From the NCBI GenBank assembly GCA_011390615.1, contig JAABSB010000006.1, positions 1 to 45,524 on the forward strand: a DNA stretch of 45,524 nucleotides, given 5' to 3'. Under the pieces are notes generated by a model. That model was not told the origin of the DNA. It worked only from the letters and a program-made list of their open reading frames with translations, and made no database searches. The position numbers and the translations under genes were made by a program. The DNA comes from Desulfotignum sp. (GTDB lineage: Bacteria > Desulfobacterota > Desulfobacteria > Desulfobacterales > Desulfobacteraceae). The stretch's first letter is position 1, and every line of letters starts with the position of its first letter. Positions 13,297 through 20,238 of the stretch are shown one piece after another.

Positions 13297-13614
13297 TTAT
13301 ACACATCCGGTCGGCTTGGGCAGACCGGCCATTTTACAGGCGCCTTTACCCGGGCCTGAGGGGAACAGTTCATAGATGTGTTTGAGTTTGAATTTGGTGA
13401 GTTTGGAAAGTACCCGCACCATCGGGGCAATACCGTTTTTCTCATAATAGTCCTGGAGCACTTTCACCAGCTGCCAGTGCTCGTCAGTCATCTCTTCAAT
13501 TCCTTCCTGTGTCTTGACATATTCCACCCACTCTTCTGAGTAAGAATTATAATCAAGAAGGAATCCATCTTCATCTATTTCAAATGTTTTCCCGTTGAAT
13601 TCTACTGTTGCCAT
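13297..13614 (-). CDS. dsrC: DsrC/TusE-family dissimilatory sulfite reductase partner protein
   Basis: 105 aa from MATVEFNGKTFEIDEDGFL; C-terminus GACKMAGLPKPTGCV retains both conserved Cys (C-x10-C); AGGAGG Shine-Dalgarno upstream. Track start (13683) extends too far. Confidence 0.95.
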   Translation of the reverse strand: MATVEFNGKTFEIDEDGFLLDYNSYSEEWVEYVKTQEGIEEMTDEHWQLVKVLQDYYEKNGIAPMVRVLSKLTKFKLKHIYELFPSGPGKGACKMAGLPKPTGCV

Positions 13615-13788: not shown

Positions 13789-14634
13789 TTAATACTCTTT
13801 CGGGGTCTGGTTTATCTGTTCAAGGGTAAAAACCGGTCCGTCTTTGCACACCAGTTCCTTTCCGATATTGCACCGGCCGCACATGCCGATACCGCACTTC
13901 ATTCTGTTTTCCAGGGACATGATTATCTGGTGTTCCTGGTATCCCAGCTTTGTCAGTGCCGGCTGGGTAAATTTGATCATGATGGGCGGTCCGCACACAA
14001 TGGCATAGGTGTCCTCATCCGCTGGAGGGGCATTTTTTTCCACCACCTGGGGTACGAATCCGGTATGGTATTGCCATTCCGGGTCATCAGTACCATCCAC
14101 TGTGATATGCATATTGATGTCATCGCGTTTTTCCCAGTCAAACAGCTCTTCTCTGTACAGCAGCATACCGGGTGACCTGGCACCGTACACCACGTCTATG
14201 TTTTTGAACCTGGACCGGTTGGCAGGGTCCAGCATGTAGACAATGGACGATCGCAGGGTGGTAAAGGCAAATCCGCCGCCGATGATGACCACGTTCTTGT
14301 TTTCCAGTTTTTCCCAGGGATACCAATTGCCCAGCGGCCCCCGGATGCCCATGATATCTCCCTTTTTCATGTTGTGAAGATGGGTAGTGACCATGCCGGT
14401 TCTGAAAACGGTGAATTTGACAAAACCTTTTTCCACCGGTGATGAGGCAATGCCGATGGGAATTTCTCCCACACCCGGTATGGAAAGTTCGGCAAACTGG
14501 CCGGCCTTGTAGGCGAATTTTTCTTCATCTGCAGGATTTTGAAAAACAAAGGTAAAGGTTTTCAGGGACTTGTCTTCCGTTGCCACTTCGATATCATCAA
14601 TGCGAACCGGATACGGTACATAAGGGTTTTCCAT
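13789..14634 (-). CDS. flxA: FAD/NAD(P)H-binding oxidoreductase subunit FlxA-like
   Basis: 281 aa; ferredoxin-reductase-like fold motifs (AGQFAELSIPGVGEIPIGIAS, GPLGNWYPWE, IIGGGFAFTTLRS), C-terminal CGIGMCGRCNIG [2Fe-2S] motif. Confidence 0.85.
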   Translation of the reverse strand: MENPYVPYPVRIDDIEVATEDKSLKTFTFVFQNPADEEKFAYKAGQFAELSIPGVGEIPIGIASSPVEKGFVKFTVFRTGMVTTHLHNMKKGDIMGIRGPLGNWYPWEKLENKNVVIIGGGFAFTTLRSSIVYMLDPANRSRFKNIDVVYGARSPGMLLYREELFDWEKRDDINMHITVDGTDDPEWQYHTGFVPQVVEKNAPPADEDTYAIVCGPPIMIKFTQPALTKLGYQEHQIIMSLENRMKCGIGMCGRCNIGKELVCKDGPVFTLEQINQTPKEY

Positions 14635-14659: not shown

Positions 14660-15712
14660 TTACTTGCTCTCATAATTATTCATAATTGTGCACACTTCCC
14701 GGATGTCGATATTCACCGGACAGCTGGCAACGCACCTGCCGCATCCCACACACATGATGCCCTGGTCATATTTGTCCACAAAATATTTCAATTTGTGCAT
14801 GAACCGCTGCCTGACCCGCTGCACCTTGGATCCTCTGGGGTTGTGACCGGATGCATGGTGGGTGAACAACGGAGACATGCAGGTATCCCAGTTTCGAAAC
14901 CTTACTGCTGTCTTGTGTTTGGTTTCATCCTGGATATCAAAACACCAGCAGGTGGGGCACACAAATGTGCAGGTGCCGCAGTTGATGCAGGAAAATGCCA
15001 CATCATCCCAGAAAGGGGCTTCATACAGATCCAGAATCGATTTTTCAGAAAGCTGGTCCGTGTCAACAGAGGTAATATTTTTTTCCGCCTCTTTTCTGAG
15101 AATATCGAACAGGGACTGGCTTTCCGCAGCATCAGCCCTGGTATCAAATCCGCAGGCCCCAGCCCAGGTTTCCCCTTTTTCGGTCAGGATCTTGGCCAGG
15201 TATCTGTCATCCAGATCCGCCATTAAGACATCCAGTCCTTCTTCACTGAAAGGTCCGCATCCGGTGGATGTGGAAAAATCACAGGGACCTGGGTGGTTCA
15301 CCCCCAGTCCCACAAAGGTGGTGGCTGCATAGGCCTCACACCAGTAAGGATCCTGATAATCCGGGTTGTCAAAATTCAACTTGACCAGAAGGATGGCCCT
15401 GGCATCATAGGGCCGGATCCCCAGAACCACCCGGGGGGTATCATCTTTTTTCACCGGCTTCATGACGTGGTGGTCTTCTATGGATGCATCCAGGGTTGCT
15501 GTCAGCATTTTTTGTGTCTGGGGAAAAAGCACAGACTTCGGGGACATGACCGTAACACCCGCATCCATCAGGGGATGGACATCCGGGGCCAGCGGTTTTA
15601 TCTGGCAGCCGTTTTCGTCCTGGACAGGGCCGAAAACCTGATAGGTTTCTCTGGATTTGTCTATCCCCGTGGTCCAGTCCTTTTTATCGATTGTTATGAA
15701 ATTCATATGCAT
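14660..15712 (-). CDS. flxB: 4Fe-4S dicluster protein, FlxB-like (AsrA-like)
   Basis: 350 aa; CINCGTCTFVCPTCWCFDIQ and CVGCGRCVASCPVNIDIREV motifs; position in the cluster. Confidence 0.75.
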   Translation of the reverse strand: MHMNFITIDKKDWTTGIDKSRETYQVFGPVQDENGCQIKPLAPDVHPLMDAGVTVMSPKSVLFPQTQKMLTATLDASIEDHHVMKPVKKDDTPRVVLGIRPYDARAILLVKLNFDNPDYQDPYWCEAYAATTFVGLGVNHPGPCDFSTSTGCGPFSEEGLDVLMADLDDRYLAKILTEKGETWAGACGFDTRADAAESQSLFDILRKEAEKNITSVDTDQLSEKSILDLYEAPFWDDVAFSCINCGTCTFVCPTCWCFDIQDETKHKTAVRFRNWDTCMSPLFTHHASGHNPRGSKVQRVRQRFMHKLKYFVDKYDQGIMCVGCGRCVASCPVNIDIREVCTIMNNYESK

Positions 15713-15724
15713 ACCTTTATTTGT

Positions 15725-16681
15725 TTACTTGATAAAATCATTGGGATCATCCGGACTGTATACATCCAGGGGTGGACGTTTTTCCATGTCCAGGCCCGCT
15801 TCCCAGCCAAAGAGCTCCAGAGCGTCTTTATTGAGCTTACGGGTGAAATCCCTGACATTGATTCCCATGGGGCAGGCTTCCACACAGGCACCGCAGTCCG
15901 TACACCTGCCAGCACAGTGAAAGGCCCGCAGAAAATGAAAGGTATTGATATCAGTCTTGTCCTGGCCCTTGCCCACCCACTGGGGAGAAGATTCATCCAC
16001 AAAACAGGTGGGGCAGTAGCACAGGGGACAGGCATTTCTGCATGCATAGCACCGGATGCAGTTTTTGGTCAATTCCTGAAAATGGGCCCACCTGGCTGCC
16101 GGATCCATGGCTGCAATATGGTCCACATCGGCAAAGGGCTGGTCAAGAGACTGCTCTTCAACCGGTTCTGCCGCCATGACGTCAAACACCACCGGGTTGC
16201 GGTGGGTGCAGACCCGGCAGTTATGCCGCAGCACATCTTTTTTGGAAACCTTTTCTTTTTTTTGGGGCGATACAATGGTAAGGGTATCACCATCTTCAAT
16301 GAAATCCGTGATTTCATCTTCAAAAAGGGCGGCAATCTTTCTTTTGTCCACCATGCCGGTGCAGGGGACCCCGATGATATACAGCTGGTCCCGGGACACC
16401 TGGTTTTCCACCATATGGGTGACCAGGTTCCGGGAATCGCATCCTTTTGCCGTTACGGCAATTTTACCCTCTTTTGGTAATACGTCTGACACATAATTGG
16501 CCAGGTTGAGTCCGCAGGTTGCATTGAAAACCAGTTTTGCCACATCCTCTTTGGATGTGACGGCAATGGGGCGGGAGGCCATGGGAATGGAACCCTCGGC
16601 AAACCCGATCACTTTTTGTACTTTCCCTTTGGCAAGCAGGTCTGCACAAATCGTCCTTATTTTTTCTATACAGGTATCCAT
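15725..16681 (-). CDS. flxC: 4Fe-4S protein, FlxC-like
   Basis: 318 aa from MDTCIEKIRTICADLLAKG (start 16681); CIRCYACRNACPLCYCPTCF and CTDCGACVEACPMGINVRDF. The track start (16831) runs into flxD. Confidence 0.75.
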   Translation of the reverse strand: MDTCIEKIRTICADLLAKGKVQKVIGFAEGSIPMASRPIAVTSKEDVAKLVFNATCGLNLANYVSDVLPKEGKIAVTAKGCDSRNLVTHMVENQVSRDQLYIIGVPCTGMVDKRKIAALFEDEITDFIEDGDTLTIVSPQKKEKVSKKDVLRHNCRVCTHRNPVVFDVMAAEPVEEQSLDQPFADVDHIAAMDPAARWAHFQELTKNCIRCYACRNACPLCYCPTCFVDESSPQWVGKGQDKTDINTFHFLRAFHCAGRCTDCGACVEACPMGINVRDFTRKLNKDALELFGWEAGLDMEKRPPLDVYSPDDPNDFIK

Positions 16682-16691
16682 GATATACCCC

Positions 16692-17117
16692 TTATTTGGT
16701 ATAGTCTTTTGCAAATTTTTTATCGGTGTCCAGGGCCCTGACTTTGTCGGATATCTCTTTGACCACATCCACAAACTTGGTGGCTTCGGCAGAGGAGATC
16801 CAGGAAAAATGCAGCCGGTCCCGTTCAACACCCATATGTTCCAGAAGGTTTCCCATCATAGCAAATTTCCGTCTCGCATAGTAATTACCGTCCAGGTAAT
16901 GGCATTCGCCGGGATGTCAGCCGGACACCCATACGGCATCAGCACCCTCCCGGAAAGCGGACAGAATGAATTTGGGGCTCATGCGGCCGGAGCAGGGGAT
17001 CCGGATCACCCGGATATCTGCCGGGTATTCCATCCGGCTCACCCCTGCCAGGTCTGCTGCACCATACGAGCACCAGTTGCACAGAAAACTTACAATTTTT
17101 ATATTATCATCAGCCAT
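16692..17117 (-). CDS. flxD: FlxD/MvhD-family hydrogenase iron-sulfur (delta) subunit, predicted selenoprotein (in-frame TGA at 16917-16919)
   Basis: Read through [144 protein letters not shown]. 141 aa, true stop TAA at 16692-16694. The ORF track shows only the 66-aa N-terminal piece. Confidence 0.92.
16884..16900 (-). promoter_or_regulatory. Putative bacterial SECIS hairpin for flxD
   Basis: Minus strand, 16 nt after TGA: ATTACC-TGGAC-GGTAAT, a perfect 6-bp stem with GG in the loop. Confidence 0.7.
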
Positions 17118-17145: not shown

Positions 17146-20100
17146 CTAACTTACTTCATCCAGAGCAAAAATCTGTGAAAGAATCTGGTTGGTGTCAAAT
17201 CCCCGCAGATGGATGGCACCGGATCTGCAGGATGCCACGCACAGGCCGCAGCCTTTGCACAGCACAGCATTGACATCCGCCCTGCCTGCAAACCGGCCTT
17301 CAGCCATGAATGACGGGGCGTTGTACGGACAGATGGACACACACACACCACAGGCACTGCATTTTTCCACATCCACGCTGGCAATGGTGCCGGAGGTGAA
17401 CAGGCTGTCTTTTTTGGCCAGCAGGGTCAGGGCCCGGGAAGCGGCAGCCCGTCCCTGGGTAATGGCCTCGTTCACCGGTTTGGGATAGTGGGCGGAACCG
17501 GCAATAAAAACACCGTCTGTGGCAAATTCCGCCGGTCCGAGTTTGGCATGTTTTTCCACAAAAAACCCTTCATCATTCAAGGGCACCTTGAAGAAATTGG
17601 CCAGGCGTTCATCTTTTCTGGGCACCAGGGCCGCAGCCAGGGTGAGCAGGTCCGCATGAATGGTCACAGGCTTGTTCAGCACGTGGTCCGTAAGGGTGAT
17701 CTTGAGACTCTCTTTTTCCACCACCACTTCAGGCTTGTTTTCCACATCATACCGGATAAAAATGACCCCTTTTTCCCTTGCTTCTTTATAGAGCAGTTCC
17801 CGTTCGCCGTAGGTTCTGATATCCCGGTAAAGGATAAACACATCGGTTTCAGGATTTTTTTCCTTCAAGGCAATGGCATTGTCTACAGAATGGGTACAGC
17901 AGACCCGGGAACAATAGGGACGTTGGGGTTCTCTTGATCCCACGCACTGGATGAACACCGCAGACTGCACCGTATCCAGTTTCGGATCATTTTCCTTGAA
18001 CATTCTGTCCAGATCCAGGGTCCTGAGGATTCTGTCATCTTTGCCAAAACTGTATTCAGTGGGTTCAAGGGCCTTTGCACCTGTTGCCAGAACTGCAACC
18101 CCGTGCTCCAGTGCCGTTGTTTTCCCGTTGGTTTTCAGCTGGGAGGTAAAATTTCCCACAAACCCGTCCACCCCTTCCAGGGTGGTATTTGTATGGACAA
18201 CTATCTTGTCATTGGATGTAATTTCCTTGATCAGGGCATCCAGTTCTTGTTGTACATTTTCTCCCTGGGCTGTTTTCCACAACTTCAGGGCCTCGCCCCC
18301 CAGGCAGTCCTTCTTTTCGATGATATGGGTTTCATACCCCTGGGATGCCAGGCTTCTGGCCGCAGTCATACCGGCCAGTCCACCCCCCACCACCATGACC
18401 GAGGCGTTGACATTGATCTTTTCCTCTTTCAGGGGCTGGGCCAGAGCCGCTTTGGCAACCGCCATCCGCACCAGGTCCTTGGCCTTGTCTGTGGCAATGT
18501 CAGGATTGTTCTTGTGGACCCAGGAGTTGTGGTTCCGGATGTTGGTCATTTCAAACAGGTATTTGTTCAACCCTGCGTTTTTCAGGGTTTCCTGGAACAG
18601 CGGCTCATGGGTCTTGGGGGTGCAGGCTGCCACCACGATGCGGTTCAGGCCTTTTTCTTTGATGATTTCCACCATCTTGTCCTGGGCATCCTGGCTGCAT
18701 GCATAGGTGGTTTCTTCAGCCACAGTCACATAGGGCAGGGTGGCGGCATATTCGGTGACATTGGGACAATCCACCACACCGGCAATGTTGGAGCCGCAGT
18801 CGCAGATAAATACCCCGATATTGGGCCGGTCCCCCACCACATTTGTTTCCGGCACCGCAGGGAATTCTTTGGTCAGGGTGTTGCGGACCTCAGCCAGGGC
18901 ATCACCGGCAGCCGAAGCCGCAGCAGACGCATCCAGAACCGATTCCGGAATATCTTTGGGATTGTTGAACACCCCTGACACATAAATGCCGTCCCTGGAT
19001 GTGGTCACCGGTTCAAAAGAGGCTGTTTTTGCAAATCCGCTTTCCGTAAGATCAATGTCCAGTTTTTTGGCCAGATCCCTTGTTTCCCGGGAGATCTCAA
19101 GGCCCACAGACAGCACGATCATGTCATAGGTGTCTTTGACAATCTGGCCCATCTCATCCACATACTGGATAAGCAGATCACCGGTTTCCGGATCTTCGGT
19201 GACCGAATGCACCCGGGAACGGATAAAATTGATGCCGTGTTTGTGTTTGGCAGTTTCGTAGTATTTTTCAAACTCCTTACCCGGGGTGCGCATATCCATG
19301 AAAAAAATGGCGCAGTCCAGGTCTTTTCCGGCATGCTCTTTGGCTATGATGGCTTCTTTCACCGCGTACATGCAGCATACTGATGAACAATAGGGATTAT
19401 CGCATTTGTTGACATCCCGGGACCCCACACACTGGAACCAGGCGATCTTTTTGGGGTCCTTGCGCTTTTGTGCCAGCAGTTTGTCTTTTTTCTTTTTGGG
19501 TTGTGCCGGCAGTTTGGGAAATGTGGTCACATGTCCCATGGTGGGGCCGGTGGCGGACAGAATCCGTTCAAACTCCATGGAGGTGACCACGTTGGCAAAA
19601 TTGGCATACTGATAATTGTCAAATTTTGAGGGATCAAAGGGTTTGAACCCGGGTGCCAGGATAATGGACCCGGCAGTAATGGTCAACACTTCCTCTGTCA
19701 TGGTGTAGTCTATGGCATCAGCCGGACAGACCGTTTCACAGGTGCCGCATTTATCCTTGGTCAGCTTCAGACAGACATCCGGATTAATGGCATATTTCAA
19801 GGGCACTGCCTGGGGATATTCCACATAAATGGCGGTTTGTGCTTTGAGATCTGCATTATACTTGTCATCGAATTTACCCGGACATTTTTCCGTACAGGCC
19901 CCGCAGGCAATACAGCGGTCTTCTCTGACGTACCGGGGTTTTTTTAAAATTTCAACGGTAAAATTGCCTTTTTCACCGGAGATGTTTTTGACTTCAGAAA
20001 GGGTTAAAAGCTCTATGTTTAAATGCCGGCCGACCTCGACCAGTGTGGGTGAGATAATTCACATGGCACAGTCATTGGTTGGAAACGTCTTGTCCAGCTG

Positions 20101-20238
20101 GGCCATGACACCGCCGATGGACGGGCCTTTTTCCACCAGGTAAACATAAAATCCGGAGTTCGCAAGATCCAGTGCAGACAGCATGCCGGAAATACCGCCA
20201 CCTATCACCACCACAGATCCGGTCTTTTTTGATTCCAT
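17146..20238 (-). CDS. hdrA: HdrA-family FAD/iron-sulfur protein with tandem modules, predicted selenoprotein (in-frame TGA at 20059-20061)
   Basis: Reads from MESKKTGSVVVIGGGISGM through NDCAM-U-IISPTLVEVGRHLNIELLTLSEVKN...CIACGACTEKCPGKFDD... into the 17146..19824 ORF in the same frame; about 1030 aa. The motif matches HdrA NDCxM(C/U)ILSPKMVEVGRHPNI. Confidence 0.93.
20026..20043 (-). promoter_or_regulatory. Putative bacterial SECIS hairpin for hdrA
   Basis: Minus strand, 15 nt after TGA: CTGGTC-GAGGTC-GGCCGG, a 6-bp stem with two G-U pairs; the loop contains AGGUC, as in E. coli fdhF. Confidence 0.7.

Follow-up and report, generated by a model that had tools for sequence, protein, structure and literature searches.

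The window, the whole 45,524-nucleotide stretch of a Desulfotignum sp. contig that we analysed, carries on its minus strand an hdrA gene (17146..20238) for a predicted 1030-aa selenoprotein. Its coding sequence starts at the ATG at 20238, which is preceded by AAGGAGAG, and ends at the TAG at 17146; the length of the product is counted from that ATG. An in-frame TGA at 20059..20061 occupies codon 60, and read-through translation of the region gives ...DKTFPTNDCAM-U-IISPTLVEVGRHLNI..., with the frame 3' of the TGA unbroken for about 970 codons. A mechanical ORF list breaks the gene in two: a short fragment upstream and, from a GTG, an ORF of 892 aa (17146-19824). The first-pass annotation had joined the two pieces into a single HdrA gene of about 1030 codons with an internal TGA, and both the read-through translation and the conservation of the site in orthologs bear this out. 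It had overlooked the adjacent gene, mvhD (16692..17117, minus strand; FlpD/FlxD-like, about 141 aa), which starts at the ATG at 17117 directly after hdrA, has an in-frame TGA and a hairpin of its own, and is absent from the ORF list. Read through, mvhD matches the Pfam model PF02662 (FlpD) with an E-value of 2.3e-52; it is predicted to be a second selenoprotein gene.

Four further genes follow on the same strand. Domain models and synteny identify two iron-sulfur proteins, one 4Fe-4S and FrhB/FdhB-C-like by Pfam (15725..16681) and the other HydB/AsrA-like with a Fer4_22 domain (14660..15712), and a HydG/AsrB-like FAD/NAD(P)-binding reductase (13789..14634); we take these three to be flx-like on the basis of their domain content and of the literature. 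The last gene, dsrC (13297..13614; PF04358, 4.8e-37), is likewise supported by synteny, and its translation retains both C-terminal cysteines (ACKMAGLPKPTGCV). The order miaA | hdrA-mvhD-flx-flx-flx-dsrC is held in most relatives across the order wherever contigs extend far enough. Neither HdrB nor HdrC was found by Pfam or NCBIfam among the genes from dsrC to miaA; hdrB and hdrC may lie elsewhere in the genome. A search of hdrA against plasmids gave no match.

The best NCBIfam model for the long protein is HdrA2 (NF040770; 1.3e-281, 936 bits, which is below the curated cut-off of 1100), Pyr_redox and Fer4 domains are recognised by NCBIfam and Pfam, and the best solved structures are the HdrA chains of methanogen complexes, such as 5odc_A. 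Alignment to 5odc_A and other PDB entries falls into three stretches, in which all HdrA domains are found in an order permuted by fusion: a FAD/thioredoxin-reductase-like half containing the predicted selenocysteine (Sec), the HdrA N-terminal FeS domain, a second FAD half, and a C-terminal ferredoxin domain. In the numbering of P0001, residues 19-470 include the Sec and lack the N-terminal domain, residues 480-634 constitute that domain, and the FAD unit that follows lacks DCxxC. The Sec itself (P0001 residue 70, which is residue 60 counted from the ATG) lines up without gaps with Cys197 of M. wolfeii HdrA and forms a CxxU motif at this position (NDCAMU).

The same in-frame TGA is found in the closest orthologs of 59 related genomes and, in the first comparison, in every ortholog with the site covered; together with the hairpin it occurs across the order, and it is retained in orthologs as distant as ~61-65% protein identity. 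Dozens of independent assemblies show it, which rules out a sequencing error; isolates such as Desulfospira joergensenii DSM 10085 and Desulfoluna spongiiphila AA1 carry it as well, so that the TGT or TGC that resequencing might have revealed is not what these independent sequences contain. Homologs without the TGA have Cys (TGT or TGC) at the Sec site. What follows the TGA in relatives is conserved protein and, at the hairpin described below, frozen synonymous positions, instead of unrelated sequence. A dead gene in which a Cys codon has become a stop, or a wrong base, would account for the break in the mechanical ORF list, and the window does come from a fragmented MAG; the range of identities, assemblies and isolates over which the TGA is kept, the long intact frame beyond it, and the freezing of the hairpin in TGA copies only refute this explanation, to which we assign a negligible probability. 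A second HdrA paralog in the same genome (L172; G000:C172:960-3989), 47% identical, also has a TGA at the site, followed by the same 18-mer as in the window gene.

It is also very improbable that the locus encodes two proteins, one of 59 residues ending at the TGA and another initiated at the internal GTG 19824. Such a GTG start exists and would be chosen by a standard gene caller, and in some relatives the Sec segment can truly be a separate gene. However, the stretch between TGA and GTG, which includes the hairpin and the first ferredoxin cysteines of the inserted ferredoxin domain, is conserved as protein, and we rejected the GTG as an alternative start on this ground; moreover, where the small gene is separate, its frame continues past the TGA as far as another stop, and the hairpin is retained.

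Fifteen nucleotides 3' of the hdrA UGA lies a SECIS-type hairpin (CUGGUCG-AGGU-CGGCCGG; 20026..20043, minus strand). The earlier description placed a hairpin at this distance, which RNAfold reproduces, and drew it with 6 bp and a GAGGUC loop, which RNAfold does not: the predicted structure has 7 bp, an AGGU loop and an energy of -10.2 kcal/mol. The apical loop contains a G, as in bacterial SECIS elements. An Rfam scan of the window returned no matches. Compared with shuffled sequences the folding energy is unremarkable by itself (z = -0.23), and we rejected it as proof of the hairpin; since the energy is no better than that of the shuffles, the argument rests on conservation. The 18-mer CTGGTCGAGGTCGGCCGG is identical, and 15 nt 3' of the TGA, at 95 of 100 HdrA TGA sites and occurs at none of 21 homologous TGT/TGC sites, though many of the latter encode the same LVEVGR peptide; these sites are loci from named genomes plus further paralogs, and the counts are approximate, with a few genomes possibly entered twice. 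The five remaining TGA sites comprise two with CTGGTCGAGGTCGACCGG, in which a G to A change in the 3' arm (G to D in the protein) keeps the pair (U-G to U-A), two in which one end base of the 18-mer is changed, and one whose sequence is entirely unlike the 18-mer, though it, too, could expose GGUC in a loop. One Cys homolog has the synonymous CTGGTGGAAGTGGGCCGG in place of the hairpin sequence. Synonymous variation was scored at 530 degenerate codons in 47 intact Sec orthologs; its normalised entropy averages 0.79, and apart from the UGA no codons are invariant but the six of the hairpin. Because these codons alone are invariant and the 18-mer is restricted to TGA sites, the comparison indicates selection on the RNA that is confined to copies with the UGA.

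The mvhD gene shows a parallel arrangement. Its UGA (16917..16919, minus strand), read as Sec on the basis of translation and relatives, lies in VSG-U-HPGECHY, and TGA occupies the site in 59 of 60 copies, the window's own included. Conservation among relatives identifies a SECIS-type hairpin at 16884..16900 (minus strand; AUUACC-UGGAC-GGUAAU) with a 6-bp stem and a sequence unrelated to that of the hdrA hairpin; ATTACCTGGANGGTAAT, 16 nt 3' of the TGA, is kept at all 58 TGA sites with enough sequence. The sole TGT copy (L112, strain NaphS2) has GGCAAT instead, with the loss of one stem pair. In this strain Cys codons stand in place of the UGA in hdrA as well as in mvhD, and neither hairpin is left, as if the switch from Sec to Cys had been a joint one.

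Components of the Sec machinery are present in the genome: selA (589 bits), selB (341 bits) and selD (258 bits) all score above their curated cut-offs, the selD gene being cut by a contig end and its product having Sec in its known UxxK motif. The expectation that selA, selB, selC and selD would all be found held for three of them; selC (tRNA-Sec) was not found in the window's MAG (222 contigs, 83% complete), even with the selC DNA of a relative as query, but eight genomes of the same genus have it, with scores of 74-77 bits and, in those checked, the anticodon TCA. Two weak tRNA-Sec matches in the MAG (36 and 35 bits) were identified by ARAGORN as tRNA-Tyr and tRNA-Arg, and no tRNA lies within the window. 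Two of the same-genus genomes, G011 (L176:4913-6982) and G008 (L129/L186), carry an additional tRNA-Sec gene, scoring 56-58 bits and with anticodon TCA, next to an additional selB (~300 bits), near hdrA, mvhD and nuoEFG-like genes; their ordinary selC and selB lie elsewhere.

The DNA alone would be compatible with a recoded or suppressor tRNA that reads the UGA as Trp or another amino acid. Yet of the neighbouring genes checked in the window, about half end in TGA as their ordinary stop, therefore general recoding across the genome was rejected, and the Cys found at this site in homologs, the SelB-type hairpin that follows the UGA, and the presence of SelA, SelB and SelD all point to Sec, making decoding as another residue most unlikely. 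Taken at roughly 95% probability, the window hdrA is a genuine selenoprotein gene, with insertion of Sec deduced from the sequence comparisons.

The proposal that the stop occupies the position of a cluster-binding Cys fits the alignment with Cys197, which in methanogen HdrA is reported as a ligand, in trans, of the iron-sulfur cluster in the N-terminal domain of the partner HdrA (PMC9012536); CxxU is also the HdrA Sec motif listed in PMC13188914 and PMC9312934. Methanogen HdrA, as in the HdrABC-MvhAGD complex of M. wolfeii (PDB 5odc), is a dimeric protein of ~650 aa with one N-terminal and one FAD domain. All of its domains align with the window protein, with Cys197 opposite the Sec, but the window protein consists of two HdrA units fused, the Cys197/Sec unit first. 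The fused or tandem HdrA proteins HdrA3/4 of ANME and of the MetFV-HdrABC complex of Moorella (PMC9012536) are alike in that one unit has Cys197 without the N-terminal domain and the other the reverse; the window protein has its units in the opposite order to HdrA3/4, and Sec in place of Cys197. Since the Sec half and the half with the N-terminal domain are joined in one chain, and given the trans role of Cys197, the Sec is most likely an inter-half ligand: it would probably act as a selenolate ligand of the [4Fe-4S] cluster of the N-terminal domain, donated from one HdrA half to the other. A single-sequence AlphaFold model of the whole HdrA (mean pLDDT 34.7) was too poor for placing the Sec.

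In the mechanism that we propose, SelB would bind the hairpin that lies 15 nt beyond the UGA at 20059-20061 and bring Sec-tRNA(Sec) to this codon, and the ribosome would continue through it to yield the 1030-aa HdrA with Sec at residue 60. This chain would comprise two units, the first with Sec replacing Cys197 and the second with the N-terminal domain and no equivalent of Cys197. The Sec would supply the ligand of the N-terminal [4Fe-4S] cluster, on the branch that takes low-potential electrons to ferredoxin. Together, HdrA, the Sec-containing MvhD and the NAD(P)H module of flx-like proteins would most likely make up a soluble complex that bifurcates or confurcates electrons and so links NAD(P)H, ferredoxin and, probably, a DsrC disulfide. 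That these three are the partners in its reaction is a plausible assignment, for and against which we see the case as evenly balanced; it derives from the gene cluster and from the Flx-Hdr literature in PMC10553843, and because the cluster has no HdrB or HdrC the electron acceptor is a guess. The FlxABCD-HdrABC system of Desulfovibrio vulgaris (Ramos 2015; Ferreira 2023), as cited in PMC10553843, appears from that account to have in common with the window an HdrA, an MvhD-type protein, two iron-sulfur proteins, a FAD/NAD reductase and DsrC as likely partner. Likened in this way by domain content to the system as cited there, the window cluster differs in being without hdrB and hdrC and in that its HdrA and MvhD are predicted selenoproteins.

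In about 20 relatives, the syntenic locus has nuoE, nuoF and the N-terminus of nuoG between the Sec segment and the remaining hdrA (L079:2626-8796, L081, L082, L085, L086, L090, L092, L094, L097, L099, L110, L111, L114, L115 and L118, and L179 and L180 of the same genus). The Sec segment in this split form is a gene of its own, mostly of 126-133 aa (two of 146-148 aa), with the UGA, the hairpin and a C-terminal 4Fe-4S motif, and the remaining HdrA is fused to the NuoG-type N-terminus. In several of these small genes UGA serves as both the Sec codon and the true stop of one gene. The split form occurs in two genomes of the genus to which the window belongs, and the DNA of one (L179, G009) is 90% identical to window positions 20238-20009 (minus strand) up to gene position 230 and about 50% identical thereafter, the drop falling just 3' of the SECIS hairpin. 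Split and intact loci do not form separate groups in a tree built from the part that they share, and supported branches force at least four changes. The sequence comparison suggests cassette exchange with a recombination seam just 3' of the hairpin. Other relatives have a long in-frame insertion at the same place, like the published HdrL/GltD fusions. In Desulfobacteraceae Eth-SRB2 (L087:2601-3575), the Sec segment continues into iron-sulfur domains, and a probable formate dehydrogenase gene lies between it and the remaining hdrA.

Splitting of hdrA is itself not new, because an 'hdrA_N-unknown-hdrA_C' arrangement was noted in 2006 (PMC1794560); for the nuoEFG split form we found no description in the literature searched. 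A model with about even chances, in our estimate, is that the Sec end of HdrA is an exchangeable unit: a conserved seam just 3' of the UGA and SECIS would allow NAD(P)H- or formate-input modules to be inserted or swapped at one syntenic locus (none, GltD in HdrL, nuoEFG and probably fdhBA), the free Sec protein of the nuoEFG form would complete the cluster of NuoG-HdrA in trans, and the window would represent the uninterrupted form.

The novelty that the first-pass annotation implied for a Sec-containing HdrA was overstated. Sec-HdrA together with Sec-FrhD/MvhD was described in Deltaproteobacteria in 2006 (Zhang et al. 2006, PMC1794560), HdrA1 and HdrA2 of Desulfobacterium autotrophicum were reported with Sec in 2009 (PMC2702500), Desulfococcus multivorans is among the bacteria with Sec-HdrA (PMC5109826), and it has already been published that gene callers misread hdrA genes with Sec (PMC12054007). 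The window shares with the Sec-HdrA genes of Deltaproteobacteria and Sec-decoding archaea the in-frame UGA, the CxxU motif, a bacterial SECIS, an adjoining Sec MvhD/FrhD and the same order of bacteria. It differs in that its cluster contains flx-like genes and dsrC where theirs contain frhG-frhA or hdrBC, and the UGA-tied conservation is measured here over ~100 sites. The window hdrA and mvhD are thus a well-supported addition to a group of genes known since 2006.

In a large group of sulfate reducers, standard gene callers shorten or miss hdrA and mvhD, two neighbouring genes of energy metabolism, and the present result puts their annotation right. That six codons are frozen in dependence on the UGA demonstrates, with unusual clarity for a natural case, a SECIS element within a coding region. 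The predicted role of the Sec also puts forward, for testing, a selenolate that binds an iron-sulfur cluster of an electron-bifurcating enzyme, and the split form in close relatives would allow one to ask whether the ligand-bearing fragment of HdrA works as a separate protein.
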